A stretch of DNA of 64,000 nt, taken from Physcia stellaris (Eukaryota; Ascomycota; Lecanoromycetes; Caliciales; Physciaceae). The DNA is taken from NCBI GenBank assembly GCA_018902385.1, contig JABSSW010000005.1:558001-622000 (forward strand), written 5' to 3'. This document shows positions 16,893 to 61,820 of this stretch, piece by piece. The notes below the pieces were generated by a model. That model was not told the DNA's origin and did no database searches. It saw nothing but the letters and a program-made list of their open reading frames with translations. The position numbers were made by a program, and so were the translations under genes. Position 1 is the first letter of the stretch; each line of letters opens with the position of its first letter.

Positions 16893-17022
16893 TTTACTCG
16901 TCCAGGCTAGACGTGGATGCTAATGCAGAAATGACGAAATAAAAAAGCTTGAAGAAACTGATCTTCTAGTTAAATAGAAAATCAATGTCTCATTTTTTCA
17001 TTTCTCATTTTTTTTTTCTTTT
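16893..17022 (+). repeat. Split direct repeat A1 (left end)
   Basis: Matches A2 (21,311-21,432). It straddles the edge of the block and keeps many CpT, CpC, ApG and GpG sites that A2 has lost, so it is close to the unmutated form. Start is approximate to a few bases. Confidence 0.75.
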
Positions 17023-20000
17023 GCAAATATTTGCAAAAATCAATTGTAAAAATTTTCATATCAATTTTTGATGTTGCATATTTCAATTTTTTGATTTTCG
17101 CATACTTTTGTTGTAATATTTCGTTCGATTTAATTAAGATTCGATTTCGTTGATTTTTTCGTCGTCGCAATAATGTTTGTCGATATCAAATTCATTTTCA
17201 TTTCAAACAAAAACAATGTTGTCGTCGTCAAAAAAAACAATGATAACGATGCATTCAAATTCAAATTCAACAAATTTGCAATTTTCAAACGAATCATTTT
17301 CGACGTAAAAAGTCGTAATCGAATTGAAAAATTTGTTTCATGTTTTCGTTTCATTTCAACGCGTTCATTTAAAAGCATTTTTCGTTTCGTTCGTTTTCGA
17401 ATTTTTTTTTTCGTTTGATTATTTCGAAAATCAAATCGAAAACGTAAATGAAAACGATTTCAACGTCATGAATTTTGATTTTATCGATTTCGACAACGAC
17501 GACGACGACGCATTCGACGACGACGAATTTCAAATTCGACGATCACGCGCACGCGAAAAATTTTCAAATAACGAAAATTTCGTTCAAAAAAAAAAGAATT
17601 TTCGTCGTAAAATATTTTTTCAGAAAAAAATAAAATCGTATCAAAAAAAATTGAATGAATTCATTTTTATTCAACGTACGTTGTTTTCGTTGTTTTTTTT
17701 TTATATTTTTCAAGTTCGTATTTCGTTGTCGCGTTCACTGTTTAGACGATCGAAATTCGTACGAATTTTTTACACATGATTCATAATTCGAAATATTTCA
17801 AAATAAAACGAATATTTGTTAACGTGTCGTTTCGATTTTTGCAAAACGTTTATTACGATCGTTTGAATGTCAGAAATTTTTTCAAATTTTTTTTTTTTGA
17901 GTTGTATTAGAAATCGCTGTCGATACGCGTTCAGAATTTTTCAAAAATATTTTTTTTTGTTGATGACGATGAAAATATATTGCAACGTGATTTTCGAATT
18001 CATTCATTCGAATATTCAACATAAATTGAATTTCGTCATGAATGCGTATCGCATTCGTATCATGAAAACGTATTTTTACAAAAAATGAACGTCGATCGTG
18101 ACGTGACACGAAAAAAATTTAATTCGAATTATTCGCACAAAACAAAACGATTTCGTCAATTGATTGATCAAAATCGATTTCATCGAATGAAAATTGAAAA
18201 ATATCGTCGTCGTCGAATCAAACAAAAAAACGATTGAATATCAATTTTTCGTTTCACGCAAATTTAAAAATAAATGTATTACAATTCGTAACGATGTTTG
18301 TGTTGCGTTCAACAACAATATTCGTTGCGACGAAAATTGCAAATACAAACATATTTGTACAAAATGTCAACAAAAAATCACGACAAATTCGAATGTATCA
18401 ACAAAATCATCAAATGATTAATCGTTTTTTTTTTTTCGTTAAATTTTTTCTTTTCATTTTTTTTTTTCGAATTATTCATTTCGTATAATCATGTCGATTT
18501 CGATTGAATGATCGTCAAAAAATTTTTTGTATAATGTCGTTTTCGAAAATGCATTTGATTTCGAAATCAAAATGTTATTGAAAACGACAAAATGAAATTT
18601 TTATTTAAAAAATCATTTTGATCGAAATTTCGTTAACAAATTATTTGACATTATTAAACGAAACGCGAACATCGAATATATCGATGATAAAAAATTTCGC
18701 ATTTTTAACAATCACAATTCGATCAACGAAATTTTCGATTTATTCATTGTTGATTTCGTCAAACAAATGAAAATTTATCGATTGATTAAATTACGCGATA
18801 TTTTTTTTTTTCATTACGTATGTTTTTCGTTAAATTTGATTTCAAAACACGACGACGATTGAAAACGTATTTATAATTTATTATTTTTTAAAAACGATTC
18901 GATCAATAAAAACATTATATTCGACGCAAAATTTTTGAAATATGTCACGTTCGATGAAATCATTGCAATATTTATATATCAAAAACGAAATGTTGTAATG
19001 TTCAAAAAAAATTTCGCAAACGCGTTCAGACACATTTTTGTGATCGTATAAAATCGTTGATTATTCGATTTTTGTTAAAACGACGAATTTTACATGAAAT
19101 TATTTTTATTTTTCGATTTTCGAATCGCTTTTTTTTTTTTGATTTATTTGTTAAAACGTTGCATTGAATTTTCGTTAAAATTGATCATTTTCGCATCGTT
19201 TTTCATTATTTAAACGATTTTTTTTTCATCATGAAATTTGACATCGATTTTGAATTATACAAAATCATTTGACGAGATATTTGCAACAAGTTCGATTTCG
19301 AAACAAACGCGAAAAAAAAAAATTTGACACAAAATTCGAATTTCTGAACATCGAACTCGATAACGAAATCATGAAAATTCGATTTTTTTCAGTCAAATTG
19401 ACGAAAACAATGAAATTTGTCAACGTGATTTTCATTTAAAATGTTTTCACATTTCGTCAAATCGATTTTCTCGTAAATTTTCTATTTTTTTGTGCAAAAG
19501 TCGTGATTTTTGAACGATTTTTTCTCATTTTTCTTTATCGAATTCGCGATCACATTCGAAACGTCAATAAATTATGCAAATTCAACGAAATTATGCGAAC
19601 AAATTTACGTTGATGACAAATGTTTTTTTCACAATAAAACGATATCAAAATTTTGCGAAAAATATTTTCACGATCGTCAAATCATATTTGAACAAACGTT
19701 TCGAATAATTAAAACATAAACGATTTTTGATTTCGTGTTTTTGACGACGAATCATTCGAAAATTTCAATTGACGTTATTTAACGCGTTTTCGTAATCGAC
19801 AATTGAATATTCAAATCAAGAAAATGCGAACAATGTTACACGTTTTGCGTCAATGATTATTTCATTTCGAAAACAACAAAATCGTCATTCATTACGACAA
19901 TCAAATCGTTTGTGTCGAATTCGACAAAAATACGATACGTGATTCAACAATGACATTTTTTCGTGACGTAATCATGTTGTTCGTTTTTCATAATATTTTG

Positions 20001-21182
20001 ATTGAAATAATGTGATTAAATTCGAAATTCAATCATTTCGTTGATTTATTTTCACGTGATAAACACGATAAAATCGTTGACGAATATTCGCAATTGCAAA
20101 TTCATCATGATCAATTTTAGATTTCGATTTTTCGTTCATCGTTGACGCATCGAAATATTGATATGTTCAAATGTCATTGAATAAAACGATCGTTCGATTT
20201 TTGTGATTAGATTTGATTTCAAACACGCGAAAAATTCACGATTTTGTCGTCAATTCATACGTGAAATTTTGCGTTTTTGACAAATTTCAAACGTTTTCGT
20301 TCACGTGATTTTGCATTGTCGAATGAATAAACTCGTTGAAATTTCGAAAATTCAAATCGAAAACGATCAAAACATATATTATTGATTTACGTTTCGTTTG
20401 CGTCGATCGAAAATATTCTGATTTTATCGTTTTTAATGAATTTTTGTTACAACGCGAAATCAACGACATCAAACGTATGTATGACGAAAACGAAACACGT
20501 AAACGCAAAACGATTATTCGTGATATTTTGTTAAAAATTTTGCAGTTTTTCGATATTCGCATTAGAAAAAATGTTATATTGCACGTCGCATTTTGTTTGA
20601 TTTTTGCAAACTTTTTGCGTATCGATGAATTTACATGATTTGATGTTGATTGTACGTTTAATTTCGACAATTAATTTGTTATTCGTTTTTCGATGATTTT
20701 TTTTGACGATCATTTCGTTTTAACGTTTTTTGTTTCGAAAATCGATTCATTTCGCAAAAAAATTTCGATATTCATTGCAATTACGAATGATGTTGTTTGT
20801 GCAATAATTTTATTATGTCATTTGTTTTTGCATTTTTCGATTTCGAAATACGTTTTTTTGTTTCAAATCGAAAAATCAAAAATTTTCAATGTTCAATTCG
20901 TCATCAAAATATTACGCAAAACGATCGAAAATCTAAAACACGATAACAATTATTCGAAACATTTTTTTCGACGTGATGCGACAATCGAAATTCGCAATGC
21001 AAACGTTTCGAACGATTTAATTCAATTTCTAAAAAAATGAAAATCGAAAACGTTTTTGTTGTATATCGAAATCAACAAAAATTACGTTTTTCGAGCATCG
21101 CGTTATCATCAAAACGATTAAATTGTTTTTTTTTTCGTTTTGTTTAAACGACGACGTCGTTTCTCGACGTGTTTTGAAATTG

Positions 21183-21310
21183 TAAAAAATAATTAAATTT
21201 TGAAAATTGTTTTGTTGAATTGTTTTCGTTTATGCAAAAAATTTACAAATCGATCAAATTCAAAATATCAAGATTTTTGTACATAACAATGAAAAAAATA
21301 CGAAACATTA
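21183..21310 (+). repeat. Split direct repeat B1
   Basis: About 128 bp, nearly identical to B2 (21,524-21,651). It ends directly where A2 begins, as expected for split direct repeats. Confidence 0.8.
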
Positions 21311-21432
21311 ATTCGTTCAAATTAGACATGAATGTTAATGTAAAAATGACGAAATGAAAAAAATTTGAAAAAATTGATTTTTTGATTAAATAAAAAATCA
21401 ATGTTTCATTTTTTATTTTTTTTTTTGTTTCG
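21311..21432 (+). repeat. Split direct repeat A2 (internal copy)
   Basis: Mutated counterpart of A1. Compared with A1 the differences are mostly C to T before a pyrimidine or the complementary change, with a few at CpA or CpG. Confidence 0.8.
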
Positions 21433-21523
21433 TTCATTCATTTCTTGATTTTTTTCGACGTTTTCATTTTTTTATGAAATTTTGTTTTTTTCTTTTTCGT
21501 TTCAAAATTCAATCGCAAAAACA

Positions 21524-21651
21524 AAAAAAATAATCAAATTTTGAAAATTGTTTTGTTGAATTGTTTTCGTTCATGCAAAAAATTTACAAATCGATCAAAT
21601 TCAAAACATCAAAATTTTTGTACATAACAATGAAAAAAATACGAAACATTA
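21524..21651 (+). repeat. Split direct repeat B2 (right end)
   Basis: Second copy of B1; the similarity stops at about 21,651, which marks the right end of the element. About 90 bases of AT-rich sequence separate it from A2. Confidence 0.8.
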
Positions 21652-22330
21652 ACATATGTGAAAATGTTATAATTGCAAATTTCGAATAACGCGTTGATTA
21701 CGTGTCAAACATTTTAATGAAATTTAACGTATTTTTAACACATTTTTATACGTTAAATTTATTGTTCAACGTTTTTCAATTCGTTCAATTTTGCATTTTT
21801 TGCAAACAATATATCGTTTCGAATCGTTTTTTCATCGATCAAACATTTCGATTTTCATTTTCGTTCGATTTTCGTGAAATGTTCATTTCTTTTTATGCGA
21901 TATTTCGATTTAGTTTTTCAACTTTGCAAAATGTTCATTTTTATACGTGACAATAATTATACAAAATTTTCAAAATGTTTATTTTCATACGCAACAACGA
22001 TCATTCAAAAATTTTAAAATGTTTATTTTTATATGCGACAATTGCAAAATGTTCATTTTTATAACGACGATATTTTAATCATTTCGATTTTCAATGAATG
22101 TTCATATTTTCATACAAATCATTTAATCGTGAAATAATTACATTTTCATACAATGCATTCAACACGTTTTTGTTTATTTCGTAATTCACGTTTTTATTTT
22201 TCATGAAATTTCGAATTTCATACATTTTTTCGAGAAATCGAATCAGAAATGAATCGAATAATTCGTTTTATTCGTTTCGTTTTTGTTTTTGTTCTTGTTT
22301 TTTTTTTTTTTTTTTTGAATCAATCAAAAA
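21652..22330. other. AT-rich sequence with imperfect short repeats
   Basis: No gene. A loosely repeated phrase of the type AAAATGTTCATTTTTATAC recurs several times between about 21,900 and 22,110, then poly-T at about 22,297-22,315. Origin unknown; it may belong to the Copia scrap that follows. Confidence 0.4.
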
Positions 22331-22841
22331 TCAATTCGAAATGTAATTTTCAACATTTCGTCTCGAAATGAAAATTTCGATCACAATGAAAACATTTTTT
22401 TTTTGTTTTGTTTCGAAATGATTCGATAATCGACGTTTGTTTTGCAATTTTGTCGACGTTTTTTTCAACAACATGTTTTTGATCTGTTCAAAATGAATTT
22501 CGACATTATGTTTTACATTTGATTCATTGTTTCGTAACGAACATTTATAATTATCATTATACAAATGATCAATTGTTTGTTTTGAATAAACGACATTTTC
22601 GTGACATTGATTTTTTCATTAAAATTTTAATGTGAATCAAAAATTCTGACATATTTTTGAAATTATTCATTTTCAACGAGTAAAATTCTTTCGTGAATCG
22701 CATGAACTGTGCGTTTTCAACGAATTGTAACAATTGATATAGTTTTTTTAACATCAAATAATCATTATCGTAATGAAATGTTTCAAACATTTGTTTAATT
22801 TTTAATGAAATACGCGATGTCATTTCGTCAGTCGTTTGCAT
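22331..22841 (-). mobile_element. Fossil fragment of a Copia-type gag
   Basis: On the minus strand the segment around 22,569-22,841 resembles the gag polypeptide of Copia elements (helical region with a KLYQLLQF and FYSLKM pattern, then an MSEF-x-HIK stretch). Only this part is recognisable; the rest of the element is missing or too mutated to see. The Gypsy element begins about 90 bases away and may have landed in the Copia copy. Broken. Confidence 0.55.
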
Positions 22842-22934
22842 GATTTTTTTGTTTCATTTCGATTTTTCGATTTCAATTTGAGTTCGTTGCTCATTCGTTG
22901 ATTCGTTGTTCAATACAAAACTGAATTTGAAAGT

Positions 22935-23254
22935 TGTAAGAAATAAAAATTCAGAATTTGCGAAAATGCGATTCGCATTTCGTTAAACAATTCGATTATT
23001 GAAATTCGAATGATTTCGAAAAAAATCAAATTCAATAATTTTACAATTCGATCAACGATAAATTCAACAAATTCATATTTTCAATCGAAATCGATCGAAT
23101 TCGTACGATTGAACAAATAAAATGTAAATAAAAAACAATTGCAAAACGTAATTTGTTTTGTAACGATTAATAAATCAATATATTACATTTCAAATTATAC
23201 ATTTCTGATGTCAATAATTCATTAAATTATATTATTTTTAATACGAATTTTACA
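22935..23254 (+). repeat. 5' LTR of the first Gypsy element
   Basis: Begins TGTAAG and ends TTTTACA, so the tips are inverted (TGTAA/TTACA). Matches 29,234-29,554 with about 11 differences. Confidence 0.88.
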
Positions 23255-26200
23255 TTTTAATCGTTATTATATTTCAAAATGATGTCATTCGTGTATATTT
23301 AACAAAACACAATTTTGTTGTTTCGCATACATTATGTCGAATTTTAATAATGATTTGTTTTTTGAATTTGTCGAAAATATTGATTTATTTTTTTGATTGA
23401 TTTATTACAAACAACAAATCGAAAAAAATCACAAAAAAAAATTAAATTCAAAATTCGAATTGTCGAACGTTCGAAATTTGCAATTTCTATTTCATTTATT
23501 TTTGTTTTTGTTTTTGTTTATGATTTTGTTTGAAAATTTTTCGTCATGAAAATTATCGAAACAACATCGAATCAATATAAAAAAAAAATTACAAAAAATG
23601 AAAAAAATATTGCAAACAAATGAAAAATCAATTCACGTAAAACAACGTGAATCATATAATTCAATTTTCGAATTTGATCAAAATCGCATATGTTGATATT
23701 TATTTTAAATCAAACAACAATACGAACAAATTTTAAAACGCAAAAATCGATTTTCATTCAAATAAACAATACTTTTGAATCGAATTCAAAAATTTTTTTA
23801 AAAGCGACATCGAGCGAGCAATCACGTTGCAACAAAATTTTTTGAAAAAATATCGCAAACACAAACAAAATCACAATCAATCGATTAAAAATTACAATGT
23901 TGAACGAATAAATATGTTTGTTGAATTGAAATTCGAATTCAAATTCACGAAAACAATGAAATTCAACGATTTTCGTGACGAATTACGTTTGAAATTTCGC
24001 TGCATGCTTTTTAAAAAAAAGAAAATTTTCACAAAAACGAAATTGTTTGAACGATTCAAACGTATGAAAAACGTTCAAATTCTGAAAAAAAAATTCAAAA
24101 ATTTCAAAAAACGTAAAATCTCGTTCGATACTGACAATTTTGAAAACGAAAACGAAAAATTCAAAATTGCGAAATTTAAAAATAAAAAAATCAAAAATAT
24201 TAACAAAATCAATTCGAATCACGAATCAATCAAATCGAAAAATACTCGAATGTATCGTTGATTCGTCAACGAATTCAAAAAAATTCAAAACAAAAATAAT
24301 TGTATAAATTGTGACAAATCAAATCATCAAATCGAAATTTGCACAAACAAAAAAAACAAAATTATTTTCGTTGATTAAATTTTTGAACAATCAAAAAATT
24401 AATCGATTTGATGATTTTCGTTCAATTCGTTAAAAAAAAAAATTTTCGAATTTCGACTTCGATACGTCGTTTTTTTCAAACATGAACAAAAATCATGTTA
24501 ACAAAAAAAAAAACGACGCAAAAAATTTAAAAAATTTATAATTCGTAAATGCGTCAAAATCAAAATTAACATACAAAACGAAAATCGAATTTGAAACGAA
24601 TCGAAAACAATATTCGATACAAAAACAAAAATTAATTTAATAAATCATGTTTATGCGAAAAAATTGAATTTTCGTCGTTTTGAAATTTTAAATTGTGATA
24701 CAATAACAATTGACAATTATCGTTTGAAAACATATGACGTTTATTTCGTACAATTCGAAATGTCAAACGTCAAAAAAATCAATCGTTTTTTCGAGAAATC
24801 GTTTTTGATCGTGAATTTGAATTGAAATTTAACGTTAAACATGTTTTGAATACAATTTTCGAAAATCAAAATGAATTGAAACGACGACAATATCAAAACT
24901 TGACGTTGCAAAAAAAAATATTTCATTTTTATCACGAATCGTATCGAAAACATCGAATCAAAACAATTGACAAAAAACGTCATCGATAACGAAATCGAAA
25001 CGTATTTCATGTTCGTACGAATATATATTGACAAACAATTCGACATACATGAAATGCACGTTTCAAAACGAATTCAAATAAAATTTGTTTTGACGAAAAT
25101 GAAAAAAAAATTCTATATCAAAATCACGTTTTTCGAAATTCTGAAAACGTATGAAAAACTCGATAACGAAAATAAAATTTACGAATTATCGAATCATGAT
25201 TCAAACGATCATGCTATTGATTTAAAAAAAAACAAAAAATCGTCGTATGAATCAATTCATTTTCTATTTGAAAATAAGTTTCGAATTTTACGTGTTTACA
25301 TCGAAAAACATTTAATTAACGATTTCATTCGATTTTCACAATTTTTTGCAAAAGCGTTCATTTTGTTCGTCAAAAAAAAACGATAATTTAAAACTATGTG
25401 TGAATTACAGAAATTTTAATGTTTTCACGATAAAAAATAAATATTCTTTATCGTTAATCGATAAAAATCTAAATAAATTCAACAAAATCGTCAAATATAT
25501 CAACATCGATTTGATTGTTGTTTATCATCGATTGCGTATCAAGCATGAAAACGAATGAAAAACAATTTTTCGTATTCGATATAATCATTTCGAATATAAC
25601 GTATTTTTTTTCGATTTCATTAACGTTTCGACGACGTTTCAAAGTTTTATCAATCGAATTTTGACGATTCGTCTCGATATTAACGTCATAATATATCTGA
25701 ACGATATAGTAATTTATTCGATGAACGTCGAAATTCATGTCGACGACGTCAAATGAATTTTTGATCGTTTTAAAAAAAATAAATTATACATTGTTTTTGA
25801 AAAATGCAAATAATTCGTTGACGAAATAAATTTTTTTGAATTCGTTGTTTCATTCAAAAAAATACGAATGCAAAACAAAAAAATCGAAATTATTCAACAA
25901 TGATTTGTATTTCGCAACGTTTTCGACATCATGTAATTTTTCGATATCGTTAATTTTTATCGACGATTCATTAAACATTTCAATAAAATTGTTGAATTTT
26001 GATCGTTATGTTAAAAAAATCGCAAAAATTACGAAAAATATTCGTAAACGCAAACGAAATCAAAATCGAAATCGCAACAAATTTTCGAATATTCACATTT
26101 TTTTGATCAATGAAACGTTGAAAATTTTCAAACGATTTCGCAAAACATTTATCGAAACATCAATTTTACGTCATTTCGATTTCGAACGTGTTATTCGAAT

Positions 26201-29200
26201 CGAAATCGACGCATTCGACAAAATCATCGAAATCATTTTATGTCAACAAAACGACGAAAATCATTGACATTTTGTTGCGTATTTTTCGCGCAAAATGATT
26301 TCGATCGAATGCAATTACGAAATTCATGACAAAAAATTGTTGATTATTGTGATTTCGTTCAAACAATAAAAACATTATTTCGAAAACGCAAAAAAACAAA
26401 TTTTTGTTTTTATTGATTATCGCAATTTGAAACAATTTATGATTACAATTAAATTGTCGTCACGTTAAATTCGATAAATTCAAAAATTGAATCGATATAA
26501 TTTCTTAATCGATTATCGTTTCGATAACAAGAATTTTGTTGACGAATTTTCAAAACGATTTGATCACATGATGATTATTGAAAAAAACGTCGAAAACAAT
26601 CGTCAAATTTTAAAACAATTGCAAAAATCATTGATTGCAAATTCGAAACGTTTCGAAAAAATGCGAATAAATGCGATCAAAATCATGAATGCGATGCATG
26701 TCATGAAACGATTTATGAATGCGATACATAACATGAAACGTCGATTGCATTTAAATGATTTAACAATCGAATCAATCAGCGTTGTTTCGAAAATATTTGA
26801 TTCAAAAAATTCAAAACGAAATCGAATTTCAATCAACGTTGTTTCGAAAACATTCGATTCAAAAAATTCAAAAAATTCGAAACATTCGATTGAACAAAAA
26901 TTAAACGTGACATTTATAAAGTAAAAAATTTTTGTGTTAAAATCAACGATTGTATTTGAATACGCAATGTATAAAATTCGAATACAAATTGTTTTACGAA
27001 AAAAAACGATATATAACGACGAATCAACACAATCAATATTGAATTTCGTTCGTGATTTGATCGTTAAAAATCAATTCGTTTTTGAAATATGTCGAAAATT
27101 AATTATTTCGAAAACAAAAACAAATCATTGACAACACAAAAATGAATTTTTGTATTACGACGACGTCGTTTACATTTCAAAAAATTTGCGTGAAAACGTT
27201 ATTCGTGTCAATCACGATAATTCGTTCGTTGATCATTTCGACATCGAACGAACGTTAAAATTGATACGTCGAAAATATTATTGATCGAATCAAAATTTTA
27301 TCGAAATTTTTGAAATGCGACAACAAATTAAAAAACATTATGAAACATACGTCGTTTACAAACGAAACAAAATTGCACGACACAAATCATACGACGAATT
27401 TTTTTTTTTTTTTCGATTTTTGAATTTAAATGAATTGATTTTTTCATAAATTTCGTGACAAAACTTTTTTCAAATAAAACGTGAAATGAAACGATTTACG
27501 ATTCGATTTTAATGATTGTGAATCGTTTAACGAAAATGATTCATTACATATCAATAATTAAAACGATTTTCGCAAAAAATTTGATCGAAATTTTATTTCG
27601 CGAAATCATTCGATTTCATGATTTTTTTTCGTCAATCGTTATCGACAAAAATTTCATTTTCACATTCAAATACAACGATGCGTTGTGTTACGTTTTGAAA
27701 ATCAAACGTAAATTGTCAATCGTTTTTCATTTTCAAATCGATAAACAAATCGAACGAATGAACAACGTCATAAAACAATTTTTTCGCGTTTTCGTCAATT
27801 TCGAACAAAATGATTGAATAAAATTATTGTTTATGATCGAATTCGTTTACAACAACAACAAACATGCATTTACAAACATTTTTTCGTTCGAAATTATGTT
27901 TGAATATTCGTTTCGCATGTTTTTCGAAAAAACATGAAACAAAAAAATTAAATTCAAATTCGCAAAAAAAACACGTTGAACATTTAATTGAATTATTTCG
28001 AATATTGAAAAACAATTTATTCGTGACACAACAACAACAAACGAAATACAAAAACGAACGCACGAAATCAATGTTATACAACGTCGAAAATTACGTGAAT
28101 TTGAACGATAAAAACATCAAAATTAAACGAAACAAAAAATTGAAATGAAAATTTTTCGAATCATTTAAAATTTTAAAAATTATAAAAAATCAAATTTATC
28201 GTTTAAATTTATTCAAACGTTGACGAATTCACGACGTTTTTTTCGTTTTTTTAAAAAAATTCAATTTTAAAAAGAGAAAAAAGCGCGCAAACGTCACAAT
28301 TTTTCGAATTTTCGTATCAAATTGAAAATATTGAATTCGACGAAAACATGAAAATGAAAATCACGAAAAAATTTTATGAAATCGAAATCATTAAAAACAA
28401 CAAAATTTTCAAAACAAATGAAATTTCAAACAAATTTTACAACGAATTCGATTTTTATTATTTGATAAAATGAAAAAATTATGAAAACGCGATTTGAAAA
28501 TTTGCATCGTTTGTTAAACATTTTCGAAAAATTTTGCGACAATTTCACAACGAAAATTCAAAAAAATTTGATGTCAATAAAAAACAAATCATCGAAAATC
28601 ACGAAAAAAATGAATTGAAATATTTATTGCATGTTAACACATTTTCGTTTTCAAAAATTTTGTGTGTTATTTATTGTTTAAAATTTACGACGCATGAAAA
28701 ATTGAATTGTGTCAAAAATATTTTCAAAAATTGTTGTTCGATTTGATCGAACGATGAATCGTTGAATAAAAAATGTGAAATAAAATAAAAAAAAATTTCG
28801 AAATTTGAATATCTAATGCGATCGCGATTAATGAACGTTTATCGCGTTATATATTTTTTTCATAATATCGATGTTGATATTCGAAATAAAAAAATGAAAA
28901 AATAAAAAAATGTTCGAATTCAAAATTTTTTGTCAACAAATCAATTGTCAATCATCATATCGAAAATTGTGAATTGTACGAAATCAAACATTCGATCATA
29001 AAAACAACAAACAATTGATTTATCAAATTATGTTTTTTTGAATCATTCAAAAAAATGTTTTTTCAAATTTTTAACGCAAATTGATTATCGAATTCGAAAC
29101 AAAATATTTCGAAATGCGAAAATCACGATCATAATGATTTTTCAAATCGATGCAAAAACAAAACAAACAAAATACGTCAAAATTTCTGTTAACATGTTGA

Positions 29201-29233
29201 TTTCAAAAAATTTCGATATTAAAAAAAAACGTA

Positions 29234-29554
29234 TGTAAGAAATAAAAATTCAGAATTTTCGAAAATGCGATTCGCATTTCGTCAAGCAATTCGATTATCG
29301 AAATTCGAATGATTTCGAAAAAAATCAATTTCAATCATTTTACAATTCGATCAACGATAAATTCAACAAATTCATATTTTCAGTCGAAATCGATCGAATT
29401 CGTACGATTGAACAAATAAAATGTAAATAAAAAACAATTGCAAAACGTAATTTGTTCTGTAACGATTAATAAATCAATATATTACATTTCAAATTATACA
29501 TTTCTGATGTCAATAATTCATTAAATTATATTATTTCTAATACGAAGTTTTACA
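29234..29554 (+). repeat. 3' LTR of the first Gypsy element
   Basis: Partner of the 5' LTR. It keeps somewhat more ApG and CpT sites than the 5' copy, so the mutation was less complete here. Confidence 0.88.
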
Positions 29555-30968
29555 GTTTCAAACGTTCAATTAATCAATCAAAATTAAAAAAAAAAATGAT
29601 TTTGATTTAAAAAATAAAAAAAATATCGTTTCGAAATTTTTTTGTTACAATCGATGATTGTGCAAATTGATTCGATTTTGATATTTTGTTTTCGTTCGTC
29701 GATTCGAAATTTTTTTTCGATTTCGATCGACGATAAAATTTATAACAAAAACATCGAATCGTTTAAAATCGTTCATGAAAAAAATTTTAATTTTATTTGA
29801 TAATTAATCGAATTGCGTTTGAATCGTCGTCGCAATCAATGTTATTGCAAATATTTTTTCAAATTTTGCGATAATAACGATTAACAAAATCGTTAAAATT
29901 GATAATATTTCAAATTTTCGTCGATTGATTCGCACAAAAAATACGACGATTAAATTGTCAATCGTATCGTTGAACACGCGTATCAATTCGATTATCGAAC
30001 GTAATTGAAATATTATATTATTCAATTATCGAATCAAAAATTTGTAACGAAAACGTATTTATTAAAAAAACATTCGAAAACACGATCGTTGTAAATGCAA
30101 TTGTCGTATGTTTTTGATTGATTGATATTTGTAAAAATTATACAAACAATAAACGAACAAATATTCGAATATTAATTGTATAAAAATTTGTTTTTTTTCG
30201 ATCGTTACATTAGAAAAATTGTTAACATGAATGTTGAATCGTACGCGTTCAACGAAAAAATATTGAAAATTTGAAATTTTTTTTATTTAAATTAAAATAA
30301 TTGTCAAATTTTGAAAATACGTAATTTGAAAATTATTTTTATTTTCGAAATATTCGATGTTCATTTTTATTGTTGTTTGACACAAATTCGAATTTTTTCA
30401 CGAAAATCGTTCAAAAACGATTTAAAAATTGTTTGATTATTAATCACGATTATCACAATTTTTGAATTTTCATTTATCGTCGTTTAATTGACAATTCGAA
30501 CGCGATCGCTGTTATAAAATATCGTTAATTCAATCAATTGCGCATACAAATTGATTGAAAACGAAATTATTTTACAAATGATTCAAAATTTTTCGATCAT
30601 GTTATTGTTGTCGAAAAATAAAAAAAATATGTTTTGTTAATATTCAAATGGTTTTAATATTTTTGTTTCAAATATTCATTTCGTACACGATTAACAATGA
30701 AATCAATTTACGATGTTTGCGAAAAAATTTTTGATTGATATTTATGATTGTTTATTTGTTTGTTGTTTAAAAAAATGTAATAATCAAATTATTTGACAGA
30801 AAATTTTTCGACAATCGAGACGATATATTCGTTTAAAATTCAACATTTAATTTTGATTTTGAATTTTGTTAAAATCAATTATGCGCTTTTTGCGATTAAT
30901 TTATTATATAAAATCAAAGAATTTTTACATTAATTTTATTAATTTTGAATTTCTACATACATTAATTT
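29555..30968. other. AT-rich sequence, nothing recognised
   Basis: Fully CpY-depleted sequence with no identifiable domain on either strand. It ends at the target site of the small LTR element. Confidence 0.45.
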
Positions 30969-31129
30969 TGTTACGGTAAACCTGCACATAGGGCTGGAGT
31001 CAGGATATCTTGACAAGAACGGACTAGCGCCTTGGCAGCCTGGCCCAGTATCTGCACTCTGCCTCCTAGATAATAACAATTCAACCACTTTACCACCCAT
31101 ATTATCCATATTGCAGTTATTCCTTAACA
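30969..31129 (+). repeat. Left LTR of the small element
   Basis: 161 bp, tips TGTTA and TAACA. About 92% like 33,312-33,473, with most differences in the last third. Confidence 0.9.
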
Positions 31130-31131
31130 AA

Positions 31132-31139
31132 TGGTAGCA
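31132..31139 (+). other. Primer-binding site, initiator tRNA-Met type
   Basis: TGGTAGCA two bases after the left LTR; the first seven bases are complementary to the 3' end of the fungal initiator methionine tRNA (...GCUACCA). This supports an LTR-retroelement origin. Confidence 0.7.
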
Positions 31140-33311: not shown

Positions 33312-33473
33312 TTTTACGGTAAACCTGCACATAGGGCTGGAGTCAGGATATCTTGACAAGAACGGACTAGCGCCTTGACAGCCTGGCCCAGTATCTGCAC
33401 TCTGCCTCTAGATAGTAACAATCCAACCACTTTACCTTCCACAATAAGCATATTGCAGTTATTTGCCTTAACA
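33312..33473 (+). repeat. Right LTR of the small element
   Basis: 162 bp; its second base departs from the TG tip of the left copy. It is followed directly by the AATTT target duplication. Confidence 0.9.
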
Positions 33474-44771: not shown

Positions 44772-44875
44772 TTATTATCGTTTTGTATATCAAAAAATTC
44801 GTGCGAACAATTTGTTGTAATAATTATTATCGTTTTGTATATTAAAAAATTCGTGCGAACAATTTGTTGTAATAA
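44772..44875. repeat. Two-copy 52-bp tandem repeat
   Basis: Units at 44,772 and 44,824 share TTATTATCGTTTTGTATAT and a common tail, with one or two differences. Confidence 0.85.
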
Positions 44876-45500: not shown

Positions 45501-48500
45501 AAAATAATTGATATTATTATTTGACGATTTTCGATCGTATTCGTTTGATTGTTCGAACATCGTTTTGAAAAAAATTTGAATCGTGAAATTTTTGATAATT
45601 TTTTCATTCAAAAAAAAAATTAATGTATTTCACGTTTGACATTTTTTCAATGTTTGATACAATATGAATAATACGCACAATGTTCGAAATATTGTAAAAA
45701 CGATGAAAATTTAAATTCGATTTTTTGAATATGTCGAACACGAAACGTTTTTTTATTTTTATTATATCGTGTATATCATCAATGACATTTTTGTTTCGTA
45801 TACGTAATAAATCAATCAACATTTCAATGTATTTTTTTGACGAATCGTTTCGCATTATATCGATCAAATTTTTCACGATTAATATGAATTGTAATTGATT
45901 AATTTTTTTTTTCAAAAACGTCGATTGTTTTTTTTGTCGATTGTTTCGAATTTTCATTTTTGAATTCACACGTAATCATATCGACGTTTTTCGTGTTTTT
46001 GTTAATTGAAAATCGTTCGACATGTATGAATTGTTAAACGATTTATGTCATGATCGATAATATTTAATTTAAATCATGTTGTCAAATTTTCATGCATTTG
46101 AATTGAATAATGTTTTATTCACGAAACATTTTTTTTTTTTTGTAATTGATTTTTTGACACGATTCGAAACAATTTTTTTTTTTTTTTAAAAAATAAACAA
46201 AATTAAATTTTTTAATAAATATGAAATTTGAATTTGAATCGTTGTTGTGAACGCATAATATCAATTTCGTGAATTACATTTCAATCGTCGAATGATTTGT
46301 TGTTCGTTTTTATCAATTATTCATTTTAATTGTTTCATGTTTTTGCATTTCGTGATTTTTGTTTGTTGTTTATTTTTCGAATTATTCGTTAAATCGATAT
46401 TTTGAATTTCAACATGATCGTTTGCACGATTTTGTTTTCACAAATCGTAATTATCGACAATCAAAACGTTTGTTCGACGCGTATTGTTTTGTAACATTTG
46501 TTTTTATAATTTTTTCGTTTGTTGATCAATTTTCACAAAATTTTCAAATGATTCGAATGAATCGTTTTTTCAATTTCGATGTTAAAATTTGTCAAAACAT
46601 CGTATTTTCGAATGAAATGTGAATAATAAATCAAATTGTGCATTTTGAAAATATTGAAAAATCGTTTTTTTTTTGAAAAAAACGCAATGTTTTTTTGACA
46701 ATATTAAAAACATTCAAATAATGTTGTATGTAATTCATGATTGTTTCGATATGCGAATGATATTGAATTATTATCGTTATATTGATTATCATTTTAATGC
46801 AAAACAACATTTCGAATTGTGTTTTTTTCAAAAAAAAAATATAACAAAAATCATTTGACGCATATTGTTTTTAAATTTTTTTTGTCATTTTTTTGTATCA
46901 TTATACGTTTTTCAAATAATAAAATTTTTGTATGATGAAACACGCGTTCATGTTTGATTCAATTGTTTCGTTGTTTCGATTTGAATTCAAATCAATTTTT
47001 TTTTTCGTTTGCGTTTTTTTTTTGAAAATTTTCGTCATGACGTTTGAAATTTGAAATATTCAATTTTTTACGTACAAATCGATCATTTTTTTTATCATTT
47101 GATGTAAAAAATTTGAAAACATTTTTTGATGCACATTGAACAAATAATGTTTTCAAACAAAATTATTGATCGATTTGATGTATTCGTGTCGATTTTGATC
47201 GTTTTTTTTTTCATTTTTTTGTCGTTGTTTTTTGATTTGATTTTTGTTAATTTGATAATTACGCATAAATCAATGTTCGTGTGAATGTAAATTTTCAAAT
47301 TTTTTATTTTCATACAAATCGAACAATGAAATTTGTTTTTTTTTAAATTTTCAAATTTTTTTTTGACGTTTATCGAAATACAAATCGAACAATGAAATTT
47401 GTTTTCATATTGAACATTTTAATATTCGAAATCGATCGAAAAATTGTATTTTTTCGAATAATCGATCGATATATTCATTAAAATCGAAAAAATTAAAAAC
47501 ATTTTTTAAATTTGTCGTTTGCGTATCGTATCGAAATTTCAAAAATCGCATATTGTTTCAATGTTGATACGATAACAAAAATTAATTTATCAATTTTTTC
47601 GCAAAAAATTGTTAATTTACGACATAACATAATTTTTTCAAAAAATTTTAATTTACGACATAATAAAAATAAATTTATAATAAAATTTCGTTTTCATATT
47701 GTTTTCGTCAATCGATATCGAAATTAAATTCAATAAAATAACGTTTGATCGAAAACGTTGTTTTTTTTATTCAAATTCGCAAAAATAATTATATATATCG
47801 ATTATAATTTAACATCGTTCAAATTCAAAAATTTTTATAATCATATATATCGATTATAATTGTGACACGTCATTTATAACGTTCAATTTAAATTGATTAT
47901 TTAAAAAATTTAATAATCGAATTATTGTCGTTTTCAACATAATTTTTAAAATTTATAATCAATCATTTTTAATCGAAATTTAAAATTTTTTCGTTTTTTA
48001 TACGTTCAAATTTAAATTTAATTTTATTCGAAAATTTGCATATATAATTAAATTTTTTCATCAATATTCGAACATTTTTGTTTTTATTCAATATCGTCGT
48101 TTGTCGCGTGTGTTTCGTTCGACGTCGTAATTTCGTATTTACGAATAAACGCATATATTAAATTGTTCGCAAAAAATTCGTGTTTCATGAAAAATTTCAA
48201 TATTTTGATACAATCGCGATAATACAACGAATAACGATTGACGAAAACATTTTCAATCATCGATTTCACGACAAATTTTTTTTTCATTCATTTATCGTTG
48301 TGAATATTTTTGTTCAATGTGTTCAACATATTTCATCAATTGATATCATTTTTTATATGTGCGTGTTTTCACATAAATTTCAATTTTTCGTCGATACAAA
48401 ATTGATTTATCGTTTTTTTAATGCATTTGTTGTCGTTGAATTATTTAACAAACGCATATGCGCACGATAATTCGAAAAAATAATATATTTTTTTTATTGT

Positions 48501-49654
48501 TGAATTTTTGTCGTTTGAATTGTAATCAATTTTCAACGATTTTTCAATTTTGATATCGATTACGTTTTCATAAATTATGATTTTGATAATCGAATTTTCG
48601 ACAAATTTTTTGATTTTTTTTTTGATAAAATTGTCAAAATTTGTATCGTTGATGATTGATTCGATATTGTCGAAATGATTAACATCGATTTTCGATATAA
48701 TTTTTTTGTTTGTTTGTTCATTTTGATAATTTTTTTTACGAAAACGTGATTTTGCAAATGCATGTTTTTTTATCGTTTCATCATTTGCGATTAAAATTAA
48801 TAATGTTGAATATTTGCGTGAATAAATTGAAAAAACGCGATTGTTTTTATCGATATAAAAACAATTTCGACAATATCATATTTTCATTTATTGATTTTAA
48901 AATGCGATAATTGAAAAAACGAATTCGAAAATCTATGATGTTTTTGATTGTAAAAATTTCAATAAAAATCAAAACGAAAAAGATGAAAAATTTGAAAAAA
49001 AAAATTGACATTCAATTGAAATCAATTGTTCGATAATGAACGATAATTGAAATAACGATAATTGAAAATTCAAATTTCGATGCAACAATTCATATTTTGT
49101 TTCAAATTGTTGAAAATCAATTTCAAATTCGTTTTTAAATGCGTTTGTGTTCATTTTGTTAAACAAAAATTTTGAAATGTATTCACGTATCAAAAAATTT
49201 ATCGATTGTTGTTTCGATATAATGTCGCAATGTATGCAAATTGCGCATATAATAAAAAATAATTCGTGATTTTAACGTGTGTTGAATTTGATGTAATTAA
49301 ATTTCGCATTAATTTAATTAATAAACAAATCGTTTTATATTTTTCATTTCATTTTTACATTATTTGTTTGTTGTCGTCGTTGCGAACAAATTTATATCGT
49401 CATTGTCAAATTGCAAACGTCAATTATTCGTCGTGATCGACAATTTCGATAATTCACGAATTGTTGTCAAAAATTCATTCGTTTTGTTTTTTTTCGTCGA
49501 ATTTTTCAATTTTTTACAAATTCAATCGAATAAAAAAATTTGCAAATTTGTTTTTTCGTTTCAAAAAAAAAACGTCATTTTGTCATTTTCGAAATTGTCA
49601 CGTTGTCGAAATTTTGTTAAAAATTCGTGAATTCGCAATCAATGTTGTTTTTTT

Positions 49655-52372: not shown

Positions 52373-52530
52373 ACGTTTTATCGAACGTTTCGTTTCGATC
52401 GTTTAACGAATCAACAATTTCAACATTTTTTTTTCGTTCACAAATCGCATTCATCAACGTTTTATCGTACGTTGAATTTCGATCGATCAACGAATCGACA
52501 ATTTCAACATTTTTTTTTTTTTTTTCGTTT
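52373..52530. repeat. Two-copy 84-bp tandem repeat
   Basis: Units start at 52,373 and 52,457 (ACGTTTTATCG), each ending in CAATTTCAACA and a long T run. They lie inside a Phe-rich open frame that is best read as low-complexity sequence. Confidence 0.75.
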
Positions 52531-53677: not shown

Positions 53678-53795
53678 AAAATTCAACGAACACAAAATTG
53701 ATAACAATGTATTTTATGTTGATGACAAAAAATGACAAAAACGAATTCGAAATTTCGAATTGCGACAATGTCACAAAAATCGTTGTTTGTCACAT
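53678..53795 (+). repeat. Inverted-copy segment, partner of 44,243-44,370
   Basis: See the partner entry; orientation is opposite and the two lie about 9.4 kb apart. Similarity stops at both edges, so they are not clearly terminal repeats of one element. Confidence 0.65.
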
Positions 53796-55202: not shown

Positions 55203-55499
55203 TGTAAAACATTCAAAATTCAAATTTGCAAACAATGCGAATCGAATTTCGTCGAGCAAATTCGAAACATCAAATCGATTACATCGCGAAACGAACAATT
55301 TCGATTTGCAATTAGCAAAATTCACATTTCGAATATCGCATGAATATTCATGCGCGAAAATTTGCGAATTCGTACAATTCAACAAATTAATTGTTTATAT
55401 AATTGAAAGTTTGCAAAACAATTAATTCAGCAATTATTAATTTAGTCATACAATCGTCTTTGCTATACATTTTTGATGTCACATTTTTTGAATTTTACA
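55203..55499 (+). repeat. 5' LTR of the third element
   Basis: Tips TGTAAAA and TTTTACA. Keeps a few ApG and CpT sites between about 55,390 and 55,470. Confidence 0.9.
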
Positions 55500-58264
55500 T
55501 TTTAATAATTATCATAATCATCAGATTAACATCATTCGTGTATAATTACAGTCAAACAATTCAATAATTGAACGTGTTACGTTTTCGACGCTCGATTTGA
55601 ACGAGAAATCGATTTTACAAAAATTTGAACGAAAAACAAACAAAAACAATGTCGTGAAATTCGAAAAATTTATATTATACAATTAAATATCGCATTCATG
55701 ATTGATTATGTTGTTTTGTTATCATGTATTGTTCAATCTAAAAAGCAAATTCGAATTTGAAAAAATTGAAAATTTGAAAACAAAATTTCAAAAACAAATT
55801 ATTTCAATACAACGAGTTTTCGCAACGAATTTACACAAATAATTTCAATCGTTCGATTTCGTTCACGTTTTCAACGACATGCGCGAATCGTTTCAAATTT
55901 TCGATTATTCTCAACAGTAACGACAAATCAAAAATATTAAAATTATTGAAAAAATTTGCGCAATTTGTTAAAATTTTTATGCGAAATGAATTTCATTCAA
56001 ATCATCGAAAAATTATTCGAAAACAACGATTCAAATCATTTTATTTTCATTGCAAAACATAAAAAATTAAAATATCAATATATTTTCAAAATTAAATCAA
56101 ATCAATTGCAACAAAAATTTGAAACAAAACATTTTGAAAAAAAAATCACATGACGTTTTCAATGAATACAATGATTTTCAAAACGAAAATCGCGATAAAA
56201 AAATTACGTTTGATAAAATTAATAAAAAGTCAATCAAAATATATTGTATCGTTGACGTTTCGACAACGTGAATCGTCAATGCAACAAACAAAATCGTATT
56301 TGAAATGCAAAAAATTTCATATTGTTTCATAAAAAAAATGTTAATTTTTCAAAAATTGATCAAAAAAAAAACAATTATTGAATTATTTAACAATTGAATC
56401 AATTGATTATTTTCAAACAAATCGTATAAAAAATTGTTCAACAAACAATAAACAATAATTTCAATGAATTTTTCGCGACGAATTCTGCTGACGTTGTCAT
56501 CAAACGTTGTCGCAAGAAATTTTGCATGACTAATTGCAATAAAAAAATCAATTTGAAAAATAATATTTTTATTGAAATCAAAACAATTTCATTTCAAATT
56601 TTTAATCAATAAAATGTGATTTTAATCAATTCGCAATTCGAATTATTGACGTTTATTTCGTACGAATATAAATTTCGAATAAAAACAATCGCAAATGTTT
56701 TTAAAAATTGATTTGAATTATTTTATTTCGTGAAATTGTTTTCGAACAACAAAATCAAAATAAATATATCGATCAAATTCGATTTTGACATTTTTTATTT
56801 CAAATTTTTTCATCATAAGTCGTATCGAACACATGAAGTCGAAAAAATCAATCGATTTTATTATTTATAATCAAAATAAAATTTTCGATGTATTCGTACG
56901 AATACATCGTAACGAAAATACGATTTCACATGAAACGCAATTTGAACAATGAATTCGTATTGATTCAATTTTATCGAAAATCGAAAACATATGCAAAAAT
57001 ATCGACAATGAAATTCGTGAATCGTCGAAATCATGAATCGAATGAATTTTGAATTTAACGAACATACAAATCGTTCGATGAATACGCAACGAATTTGACG
57101 AACATGCAAAATATTTGACGAATTCGCAATAAATTATGAACATGCAATAAATTATTGCAATAAAATTTGCAATTGAACAAAAAATTATTTTATAATTTTA
57201 TTTATTTTTTATTGAAAAATGATTAACAATATTGAAAATTTATTTGAACAAATGTTTAAAAAATGATTTTATCAAATTTTTCAATTTTTACATTTTCATT
57301 TGATTATTATCGTTCGACGAAAACGTCAATTTTATTATATGATTGTTCGACGACAATTTTACATTTACACAAATTAAAAAATGTAACGAAATTTTCAAAC
57401 AATTTTCGTTTATGTGAATTATTCGATTTTATCGTTTAACGAAATTACAAATTTTTATATGATTGAAACATGTGACATGCGACAAATTTCGCACAAAACA
57501 AAATACAAACGTCAAACGTCGTTGACGTCGTTAAAACAAATTGTTGAATATATCGTTTATTTTTTGTTTTGTTAATTCGTTTGTAAAATAAATTTTTGAC
57601 GAAATGTTTAAATTTATACGTTATAATGTATTCGAACAAAAATTATACATTTCACGAATTATCGTTCAGATTCGTTTTTTTTCAAAATGTGCAAACGCAA
57701 AAACAGAAAAAACTTTCTCGTTTTCTCGATGAATGTGCAAATGTAACAACATAAATTATTATACAAAAAATGTTCGACGCAAATCAAAAATTTCAATAAA
57801 TTTGATTTCTGAATTTCAATGTTAAAAAATTCAACAAGATTTCGTAAATCAAAATCAAAACAAAAAATTATCGATAAATAATTTTTTTAATTTTCGAAAT
57901 AATTTTTCAAATTCGCATCGACGAAACGCATTTTTGCAAATTTTTGAAAACATTTATTTTGTATCAAATCAATTTGATTAAATCGTTTGCGTGAAAATCG
58001 ACGTTTCAAACAAAATAATAATTTATTTTTCAACGAAAATGATTTTTGCAATGCAAAAAATTTACAAAAATTTTGATCATAATATCATCGAAATTTCAAC
58101 AAATACAAACGATTCAATAAAAAAAATCATTGAAAAAAAAAAAAATTCAAAAACAATTATCAATTTGACGTATTTGCGACGATTTTTGCAAACAAATCGA
58201 TCAATTCGAATTTGTTAAATAAAAAAATCAATATTTTTTTTAAATCGTTTCGATGCGATCAAAC

Positions 58265-58296
<32 letters not shown>

Positions 58297-58509
58297 ATGT
58301 TTTACGAAAAATTTTCAATTGAAAAAAATATTTCGTGTTCGAATAATTTTCAAAAAAAAAAAAAAAAATTCGATCGATTTTTAATAACGAAAAATTAATT
58401 TTTCGAAATGATTTCGTTTTTGTTTTCGATTGTGCATCAAACGTGATCGTCGATAAATAAAAAACAATAATATTGAATAATCATCGATTTTTTAATCGAT
58501 CAACGAAAT

Positions 58510-58725
58510 GATTGTACGAAAACATATTCAAAAACATATACATGTGACGATAAAATTATTGATAATTTTGTCGAATTGATTTGTTCATTGCGTAATAATA
58601 TTGATAATGCGCGAATTTTCGAATTTGATTAATGAATAATTGAACAAAAACATATTCAAAAATTTGAAATAAAAAAAACATATGATGACGATAAAATTAT
58701 TGATATTTTTGTCGAATTGATTCGT
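58510..58725. repeat. Two-copy imperfect repeat inside the third element
   Basis: The phrases AAAACATATTCAAAAA and ACGATAAAATTATTGAT plus TTGTCGAATTGATT occur in the same order at about 58,518-58,583 and 58,647-58,722. Degenerate. Confidence 0.65.
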
Positions 58726-60799
58726 CGATTGTCGAAAATTTTTGCAATTGTGAAACAAAAATTAATTATTTTGATATAATCACGTTCGTATTGATAAAAA
58801 CAAACGAAATATTATGACACGCGAATTATTTGTACGTTTCGTGAAAATAAAAAAACGTTTTTGTAAAACATGACGATTTTTGATCAAATTTTCGATATGA
58901 AACGCATTTGATCGAACATTTTGATGAAAAATATTTCAAAACATATGTGATCGAATCAAACAAACGAAATAATTCATTGAACATCGAACACGATTCAAAC
59001 ATGCAAATACGATTCAAAAAATTTGAACATGTAAACAAAAAAAATACGATAAAATCGCAAATTGCGAAACATATAAATCGTTACAAACGTTTCGTCAAAA
59101 TTAAATGTATATTTTTTCATATAATGCGACAAATCGAAAGCGAAATATAAATCAATTGTTATGACATTTCGTTCGAATTGAAACATACGAAAAATCAAAT
59201 CACGAACATGCAATCACGATTGCAAATTGCGAAATATATAATCGTCGCAAACATTTCGTCAAAATTTGAACATGTGAATAAGAATAAATATGTCACGAAC
59301 ATGCAAGCATTTCGTCATATTTTAACATGTGCGCAAAATCATAAATTGCAAAATATAAAATCGTTGCAAACATTTTGACAAAATCATGACATGCGAACAT
59401 GAATCAAAAATGTGCAACAAACATTTCGTCATAAATTACACGATAAATTATCGTTTTAATTCAACGAAAATTGATATGAATTAATTTTATATGAATTTCA
59501 TAACAAATTAAACGCACAAACACAAAATTTTATAATTTTTTTCGTCGTACAAAACACAACGTCGATACAATTTCGAACGTCACATAAAACGATTGACGAT
59601 TAATGAAAAATTTGAAATTTGTTTTTGAAACACGCATAATTCAATAAAAATATCATCGTTCAAAATTTTGTCGAAATTTTTTAAAATTAAATCAAATTTG
59701 TAAGCAAATGCGCGAAAAATACGTTATATTGTTAAATATGCATAATTCAAAATTCAAAAATAATGAATCAAACAAAAATGCAAAAAAAACAATATCAAAA
59801 TATTCAAAAATGAATTTTTTCGCATAAATAATCGTTTTGTTTTTTGAAAAAATTCAATTTAAAAAAAAAAAAATTCGTTAAAATTTACATATCAATTTAT
59901 AAAATATCGACATTGACAAAAAAATAATCACGAAAAAATGATCAAATTATGTCGAACGATCAAATTTCGAACAAATCGTACAACGAAAACGTATTTGAAA
60001 ATCAACAACACAACGAATACAATTTTTCAATAATACAATTGATTCGAAAACAATTCAATATCATGTCGCGTTCAAACGTTTTGCAAATATAATTTTTTTG
60101 ACAAAATAATTGATTCGAACAATTATGTCATTTCGACATTCGACATTCGACATTCATGTCACGATTTTGTGTTGTTTATTGTTTAAAATTTACGACGCAT
60201 GAAAAATTAAATCGTGTCAAAAACATTTTCAAAAATTATTGTTCGATTTAATTAAATGTTGAACATTGTGAATGTGAAATGAAACGAATACAAAAAATCG
60301 AAAAAATTTCGAAATTTGATGTATTGAATGCGATCGCGATTACGACGTTTTTCGCGTTTAATTTTTTCGTCAATTCATCGATTTCGACATATGAAAAAAA
60401 AAATAAAAAAATATAAATTGATTCAAATTCAAATTTCATTGTCACACAATTAATTGTCAATCATCAAATCGAAAATTGTGAATTGTACGAAATCAAATTT
60501 TCGATTTTGAAAGCAACAGACAGTTGAATCATCAAATCATGCTTTTTTTGAATCATTCACGAAAATGATTTTCAAATTTTTATCGCAAATTGACTAAAAA
60601 TCGAAAAAAATGATATTCGATGCGAAAATCACGATCACAATAATCTTTCAAATCATAAAATTTTGAATGCGAAAATCGCGATTACAACGATTTTTCAAAT
60701 TTTATGAATGAAACATACACACACAAACTCAGAATTTCTGCTGCAAAACATATGAAAAAAAATCATTTCAAAAAATTTCGATGCTAAAAAGAAAGCGCG

Positions 60800-61096
60800 T
60801 GTAAAATATTCAAAATTCAAATTTGCAAACAATGCGAATCGAATTTCGTCAAACAAATTCGAAACATCAAATCGATTACATCGCGAAACGAGCAATTTCG
60901 ATTTGCAATTAACAAAATTCACATTTCGAATATCGCATGAATATTCATGCGCGAAAATTTGCGAATTCGTACAATTCAACAAATTAATTGTTTATATAAT
61001 TGAAAATTTGCAAGACAGTTAATTCAGCAATTATTAATTTAATCATACTATTGTTTCTGCTATACATTTCTGATGTCACATTTCTTGAATTTTACA
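60800..61096 (+). repeat. 3' LTR of the third element
   Basis: Partner of 55,203-55,499. It and the sequence just left of it (60,500-60,800) keep noticeably more ApG and CpT than the rest of the block. Confidence 0.9.
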
Positions 61097-61820
61097 CAAA
61101 TCAAAAACGAAAAATCGATTGTTCGACATTGATGTTCAAATTTTAATGAACAAATTTCGATATATTCGTCGAACGATGTAATCAGAAAAATTGCATAAAT
61201 TTCAATTCGAAAATTTTAAAAGTTAAAAATAAATCATGTATTAACGATATGCGATAATCGTTGAAAATTTCGATAAAAAATCGTCAAATACATAATAAAT
61301 CACGAATTTTGCTTTTGATGAAACAACGATTCGTTTGAATATCAAAAACATGCAATTTTAATTTTAATCAATTGATGCAAATAAATCAATTTTTTTGAAA
61401 AAAGAAATTTTACGAAATCAATAAAGTTTTTCGTCGTTTGTTTCGTCAAAAAATTTGATCGATTTGATATTTTATTTTTGAACGTTTGCGTATCACGACG
61501 AGCGATAAAATTAAAAATTTATTGTAATATCATGAATCGTGTTTGAATAAACGTAATTATTGATTAATCAAACAAAAACAATAAATTTGCAAAAACAAAT
61601 AAATATAAAATGTTGAAATTGCAAATAATATGCAGACGTCAAAATTTAAATCACGTTAATTTCGAAATTGAATTAAAATATAATTCGTTTATTTCGACAT
61701 ATTTATTCGATCACAAATCATAAAATCTATTTGTCAAATCTATTTGTCAAACATGTTCGTAACACGTTATTATTCAACGATAATAAACATAAATTAAAAA
61801 TTTTAATAAATATTAATAGA
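61097..61820. other. Right margin of the AT-rich block
   Basis: AT-rich with partly relaxed CpY depletion. A segment at about 61,631-61,770 resembles 45,351-45,505 in the same orientation, including ACATGTTCGTAACA. No gene. Confidence 0.5.

Follow-up and report, generated by a model that had tools for sequence, protein, structure and literature searches.

A 64,000-nucleotide stretch of the genome of the lichen-forming ascomycete Physcia stellaris (hereafter the window; contig C5, JABSSW010000005.1, positions 558,001 to 622,000) contains an AT-rich block in which cytosine is nearly absent before pyrimidines and retained before purines. We consider it likely that dispersed repeats of the retrotransposon type are nested in this block and that they have passed through a process of the repeat-induced point mutation (RIP) type, with cytosine followed by a pyrimidine (CpY) as the target and with conversion near completion. 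The process works like RIP and yet, by the defining feature tested, is not canonical RIP, which is led by CpA (PMC2621366; here and below, statements from the literature refer to the portions of each article that were covered, cited by PubMed Central, PMC, number). The assembly analysed comprises 43.97 Mb in 147 contigs; the genome described in PMC7513301, obtained from an axenic ascospore-derived culture by Nanopore and Illumina sequencing, is given there as 46.57 Mb with a guanine-plus-cytosine (GC) content of 43.3%.

Loss of CpC and CpT from the block

The counts refer to the following parts of the window, none of which is assigned a strand.

1-16989: unaffected left flank, used as control (GC 0.48, ordinary dinucleotides).
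16990-30968: left part of the CpY-depleted, CpA- and CpG-retaining repeat block (GC ~0.25, ~10 CT+AG per kb left), recognised from dinucleotide counts and a sharp left edge.
33474-61800: right part of the CpY-depleted repeat block, with an edge that by eye lies nearer 61,830-61,860; its core, 34001-55000, is nearly saturated.

Together the two parts of the block hold 42,306 bases at GC 0.235, the insert between them (30969-33473) being excluded. In these bases we counted no CC, 2 GG, 96 CT and 111 AG, both strands being hit alike, against 2,654 CA, 2,276 TG and 2,410 CG. Compared with 200 mononucleotide shuffles of the same bases, CC+GG (2 observed, mean 1,173, standard deviation 30) and CT+AG (207 observed, mean 3,804, standard deviation 49) are almost eliminated, and CA+TG (4,930 observed, mean 3,816, standard deviation 48) and CG (mean 583, standard deviation 21) are in excess. 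The corresponding observed-to-expected ratios are 1.31 for CpA, 1.27 for TpG and 4.12 for CpG. The core is cleaner still, with CC+GG 1 and CT+AG 15 in 21,000 bases (16 sites remaining in all), compared with 2,417 CA+TG and 1,143 CG. Dinucleotide counts are ordinary in the left flank, in the right flank (GC 0.51) and in the insert (GC 0.49). Changes at CpY alone neither make nor remove CpA, TpG or CpG, and these are close to flank levels: CA+TG makes up 11.7% of dinucleotides in the block vs. 14.0% in the flank, and CG 5.7% vs. 5.0%. The CT that is left in the block is relatively commoner after G.

An earlier note on the window, made from its letters, had described CpT, CpC, ApG and GpG as nearly absent and CpA, TpG and CpG as frequent between 16,990 and 61,800, and the counts against flanks and shuffles agree. 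Of its limits, the left one holds (the edge is sharp by eye at ~16,980-16,995), and the right one falls slightly short of an equally sharp edge at ~61,830-61,860. The note had also expected CpA-based indices to be blind to the block. This proved correct, as the RIPper thresholds (PMC6714961) flag none of 80 block windows, with TpA/ApT at 0.446 and (CpA+TpG)/(ApC+GpT) at 1.39.

Four kinds of change (CpY saturation, CpA-led, CpG-only and unbiased) were also simulated on 80 kb of ordinary host DNA. Conversion of every CpY ended at GC 0.244 and closely resembled the block: per 1,000, the simulated product had AA 207, TT 193, CG 54, CA 68 and TA 44, and the core has AA 210, TT 201, CG 54, CA 60 and TA 64. 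The CpA-led simulation (with assumed target weights), the CpG-only one and the unbiased one failed to resemble it.

At the protein level, none of 55 stop-to-stop frames of at least 85 codons in the block (17133-61019) contains a codon for Pro, Gly or Trp, because CC, GG and TGG have been lost.

Direction and context of change in paired copies

The direction of change was read from a 10-kb locus (L012) that carries an ordinary-GC copy of a repeat and a mutated relative in inverse orientation, which we aligned base by base. C was replaced by T at 113 of 125 CpC and 105 of 143 CpT sites, compared with 11 of 143 CpA and 10 of 132 CpG sites (CpY vs. CpR, R being a purine, Fisher p = 7e-75). CpC was hit harder than CpT (90% vs. 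73%, p = 5e-4). Over both strands, 146 C-to-T and 93 G-to-A changes stand against 7 T-to-C and 10 A-to-G changes. The 5' context is weak, with 37/38 ACC, 20/20 CCC, 22/24 TCC and 34/43 GCC mutated; at L012:4000-6000 a preceding G is mildly disfavoured (61/86 GCY vs. 157/182 others, p = 0.004). Two further pairs join partly to strongly mutated copies. From L020 to L031, 27 of 28 CpY sites had changed and 18 of 108 CpA+CpG sites (Fisher p = 2e-15), and from L023 to the window, 57 of 64 and 26 of 125 (p = 3e-20). The three directional pairs represent different repeats, and in all of them the change is from C to T in CpY.

The pattern elsewhere in the genome

To survey the genome, we sampled 24 segments of 10 kb, at position 300,001 of 20 large contigs and at the starts of four smaller ones, and divided them into 500-base windows, those below 35% GC being termed low-GC. 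Low-GC DNA was present at 8 of the 24 loci, on eight contigs, and accounted for 38 of 400 windows from the large contigs and for 66 of 80 from the smaller ones. CC+GG was below 10 in all 104 low-GC windows and in 3 of the 376 others, and CT+AG was less than half of CA+TG in 99 of the 104 and in 1 of the 376. Pooled per kb, low-GC and high-GC DNA differ little in CA+TG (125 vs. 136) and in twice CG (126 vs. 109) and strongly in CT+AG (21 vs. 132) and CC+GG (1.0 vs. 118). In low-GC DNA the loss of CpC is thus more complete than that of CpT, to whose count back-mutation of abundant TpT may contribute. The affected share of the genome is uncertain, with 38 of 400 windows among the large contigs on one count and roughly 28% if it is derived from the published value of 43.3% GC and the two GC classes of the sampled windows.

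The pattern thus recurs in other AT-rich DNA of the genome, a result that the earlier note would have counted as support. Of the two observations that the note had set against itself, CpA depleted like CpT and CpC and the same bias in single-copy genes, neither was made, the second being judged from the 376 ordinary-GC windows. Its RIP-like process with a 3'-pyrimidine preference and near saturation gains support from the three directional pairs and from the repeat tests below.

Repeats and elements inside the block

All four block pieces tested (18000-21000, 23500-27500, 46000-49000 and 57000-60000) are dispersed repeats. For a control piece in the flank (9000-12000), no other genome copy longer than 446 bases was found. 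Scoring 37 of 490 candidates for the piece 23500-27500 gave 34 further copies of nearly full length, 91-95% identical to it. Judging from their identity to a mutated query, these copies are presumably mutated too, and the one seen directly, a 1.5-kb stretch in L036, has GC 0.26. Several copies of 46000-49000 lie close to contig ends (C5:1175820 of 1184035, C13:13390, C18:512), and this family is perhaps subtelomeric. The elements recognised in the block, and those of the insert treated below, are listed here.

22935-29533, plus strand: mutated Gypsy-like long terminal repeat (LTR) retrotransposon, whose LTRs are direct repeats of 300 bases at 22935-23234 and 29234-29533 (97% identical).
25830-26264, plus strand: RNase H-like piece of the Gypsy-like element (PF17919, E = 1.7e-5, 25.3 bits, short of the curated cut-off of 29.8).
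27485-27814, plus strand: integrase-like piece of the Gypsy-like element, 66% identical to protein P0124, which carries PF00665.
55203-61096, no strand assigned: second mutated element, with 297-base direct repeats (55203-55499 and 60800-61096, 95% identical) that are probably LTRs; its piece 57000-60000 is repeated elsewhere.
30969-33473, plus strand: unmutated LTR-like insert of 2,505 bases, with terminal direct repeats of ~160 bases (~30969-31129 and ~33313-33473) and TG...CA ends.
31953-33197, plus strand: 415-codon open frame within this insert, with no Pfam match at E 0.1.

The insert serves as an internal control of ordinary composition within the block. Its terminal repeats and a 5-base target duplication (AATTT) indicate that it was inserted after its surroundings had mutated. 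The family is dispersed (105 match rows, obtained by scoring 40 of 176 candidates), and its relatives sit in or beside mutated DNA, some parts of loci L030-L039 outside the insert copies being mutated. As a source of ordinary and mutated pairs the family had to be rejected, as nine long relatives (L030-L038) and L039 are unmutated inside and gave no RIP spectrum.

Within 1 kb of the block edge, at 62528-64000 on the minus strand, a reductase-like PF07993 domain is accompanied by a weak phosphopantetheine site, as in the end of a synthetase.

The integrase-like piece was also compared at the protein level, and metagenome relatives occur among the 120 listed of 6,353 matches. Eight of them (P0121-P0123, P0125-P0128 and P0132) together keep conserved Pro at 1 of 36 positions. 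Conserved Gln is mostly kept in seven of the eight, P0132 keeping 0 of 2, and P0121 and P0125-P0127 still have Trp. The Gly positions say less, as 4 of 5 are missing from P0124 too, a protein that is mostly unmutated. P0133, excluded from the eight, has the same Pro and Gly missing and 0 of 3 His. Loss of Pro with retention of Gln suggests, from these protein sequences, that the same context may operate in other fungi, and CpY mutation may have left its trace in protein databases as integrase fragments poor in Pro. Relatives were also sought in viral contigs, where two scans confirmed none and a third yielded L040, a match over 16 residues that could not be used.

Cytosine methyltransferase genes

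The earlier note had proposed looking for DNA methyltransferase genes of the RID and DIM-2 types, and both types are present. A PF00145 profile search of the genome gave three genes (four match rows): L001, L002 and L003/L004. L002 is DIM-2-like, scoring 608 bits to chain 9bap, which we take to be Neurospora crassa DIM-2, and has a weak BAH match. L001 and L003/L004 are located on C6 and C5, and one RID-class gene lies on the window's own contig, ~57 kb to the left. L001 and L003 are 39% identical over 170 residues of the catalytic part and have no Pfam BAH match at E 0.01. Both carry SPPCQ and GNAVPP, presumably the usual catalytic-domain motifs, and have EQT or EET in place of ENV, which we assume to be the usual form. 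By their motifs, short catalytic domain and missing Pfam BAH match, they are classed as the short RID/Masc1 type. We lean toward a RID-class enzyme as the one responsible, because the target is set by the base on the 3' side and not by that on the 5' side, and because in PMC4352252 the CpA and CpT signatures go with genes of the RID class.

A possible mechanism

The data show a change from C to T, a pyrimidine on the 3' side of the target, a link to repeats, sharp edges, near-complete conversion and no such change in ordinary DNA. From this pattern we infer both a defensive role for the process and the kind of enzyme behind it. Duplicated DNA would be recognised and its cytosines changed to thymine on both strands, the target being C before a pyrimidine, with CpC taken at least as readily as CpT and with CpA and CpG almost spared. 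The changed specificity would reside in one of the RID-class pair (or in the DIM-2 homologue), and the process would act in the sexual cycle. With near-total CpY conversion in every copy, the copies would arrive at a common product and keep their identity of 91-95%; homology would therefore be kept and the process could reach completion, in contrast to patchy CpA RIP, which would drive copies apart. Complete conversion would thus explain why RIP need not destroy homology.

A wider proposal, which we hold with about as much doubt as confidence, is that in Physcia, and probably in its relatives, one RID-class enzyme has switched its reading of the 3' base from A to pyrimidine. The outcome would be a self-converging RIP in which nearly all CpC and CpT of repeats are converted, copies end identical, codons for Pro, Gly and Trp vanish and the only new stops come from TGG changed to TGA. 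This would be a distinct genome defence, invisible to the usual indices, and may have gone unnoticed in fungi already sequenced.

Alternative explanations

A slow route to the same composition would be methylation and deamination, in which a heterochromatin methyltransferase, e.g., the DIM-2 homologue, marks CpC and CpT in repeats and the marked bases are lost spontaneously over a long time. Such a mark would track repeats and carry a 3' context, a DIM-2-like gene is present, and the oldest-looking core is the most complete. However, only 16 CC, GG, CT and AG are left in the 21 kb of the core with CpA and CpG hardly changed, and the identity among family copies (91-95%) and between direct-repeat ends (95-97%) means that general divergence is small relative to CpY loss; we regard this route as unlikely. 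Much less likely is the editing of retroelement DNA before insertion by an APOBEC-type DNA cytidine deaminase. Strong context and the C-to-T direction would suit such an enzyme, but enzymes of this kind read the 5' base, and the mutated sites of the L012 pair have no strong 5' context; both strands are also hit alike. A search for PF08210 deaminases found no match in the genome, and as 14 control genomes were also without a match, this does not imply absence.

The composition might instead be non-mutational, the block being foreign or selected AT-rich sequence or an artefact of sequencing or assembly, and the data come from a single Nanopore and Illumina draft (PMC7513301). We give this even less credence, as the ordinary-GC relative in L012 shows C-to-T change at CpY base by base, the pattern recurs on eight contigs, the insert inside the block is ordinary, and 55 frames without Pro, Gly and Trp would be improbable in functional coding DNA. 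Ordinary CpA-preferring RIP, with the earlier reader misled by composition, is the common form in ascomycetes (PMC2621366, PMC12543289) and is nevertheless barely credible here, considering the CpA and TpG ratios above 1.2, the TpA/ApT of 0.446, the RIPper result and the mere 11 of 143 CpA sites changed in the L012 pair.

Several results weigh against a RIP-type process confined to CpY. More diverged pairs show CpA and CpG differences of 27-29% and are less clean: from L020 to the window, CpT 64/89, CpA 92/339 and CpG 96/343 had changed, and from L026 to the window, 16/21, 52/185 and 64/222. The core has TpA at 64 vs. 44 simulated and CpA/TpG at 60/56 vs. 68/67 (per 1,000), the TpA excess likely reflecting slight CpA loss or a different starting composition. 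Among lichen fungi, Gyalolechia flavorubescens and Cladonia metacorallifera were reported as RIP-affected by CpA indices (PMC7882544). The main result that fits awkwardly with a simple repeat rule is the sparing of the insert family: all 10 other copies examined (L030-L039) are unmutated inside. The copies compared are 86% identical at best, and our guess is that divergence may put them below a pairing threshold. Between unmutated members of the family, CpC and CpT sites also differ slightly more often than CpA sites.

Comparison with known systems

The process in Physcia shares with the RID-dependent CpA RIP of Neurospora and most ascomycetes the C-to-T change on both strands, the targeting of repeats, the sharp edges, the AT-rich transposon-filled blocks and the presence of RID-class and DIM-2-like genes. 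It differs in its target, which is CpY with CpA and CpG kept, and in copies that are 91-95% alike. CpC is the least favoured target of Neurospora RIP, whereas in Physcia it is at least as favoured as CpT.

The earlier note knew of no described system with such a context. In one respect this needs correction, as a CpT signature beside CpA is on record in transposons of Botrytis, Sclerotinia and Magnaporthe, in 10-40% of elements, in fungi that also have RID/Masc1-class genes (PMC4352252). Those fungi show CpA as a signature as well, and no report of CpC was found for them in the portions covered. In Physcia, CpC and CpT are changed near completion and CpA is spared; in the L012 pair, CpT was changed at 105 of 143 sites but CpA at only 11 of 143, the same as CpG (10 of 132). 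The CpA- and CpG-sparing form itself was not found among the matches listed from open-licence PMC literature, in the portions covered, nor was discussion of RIP in P. stellaris found in those of its genome paper (PMC7513301).

CpG-led change is described in basidiomycetes, Tuber melanosporum and Aspergillus MATE elements (PMC2621366, PMC4352252). These cases resemble Physcia in that the target dinucleotide can vary between fungi, and they differ in that Physcia retains CpG, with 2,410 left in the block at a ratio of 4.12. Cladonia rangiformis, G. flavorubescens and C. metacorallifera are, like Physcia, Lecanoromycetes with large AT-rich mutated repeat regions. In C. rangiformis such regions were found by GC alone, with a GC peak at ~16%, and RID and DIM-2 homologues were reported (PMC12542154); as CpY conversion alone takes Physcia DNA no lower than GC 0.244, these regions probably involve other contexts.

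A 2025 survey, in the portions covered, concludes that a CpA preference is common to RIP-like defences and names 130 species, from four classes, as bearing strong recent signatures; Lecanoromycetes is not among these (PMC12543289). P. stellaris contradicts this general rule, having a strong RIP-type signature that is not CpA-led and is scored as unaffected by the usual indices. Hidden cases could be screened for simply, by comparing CpC+CpT with CpA+CpG in low-GC DNA or by looking for frames without Pro and Gly. Set beside the CpA-led systems, P. stellaris offers a natural specificity variant for asking how RID-class enzymes select the base after the target cytosine.

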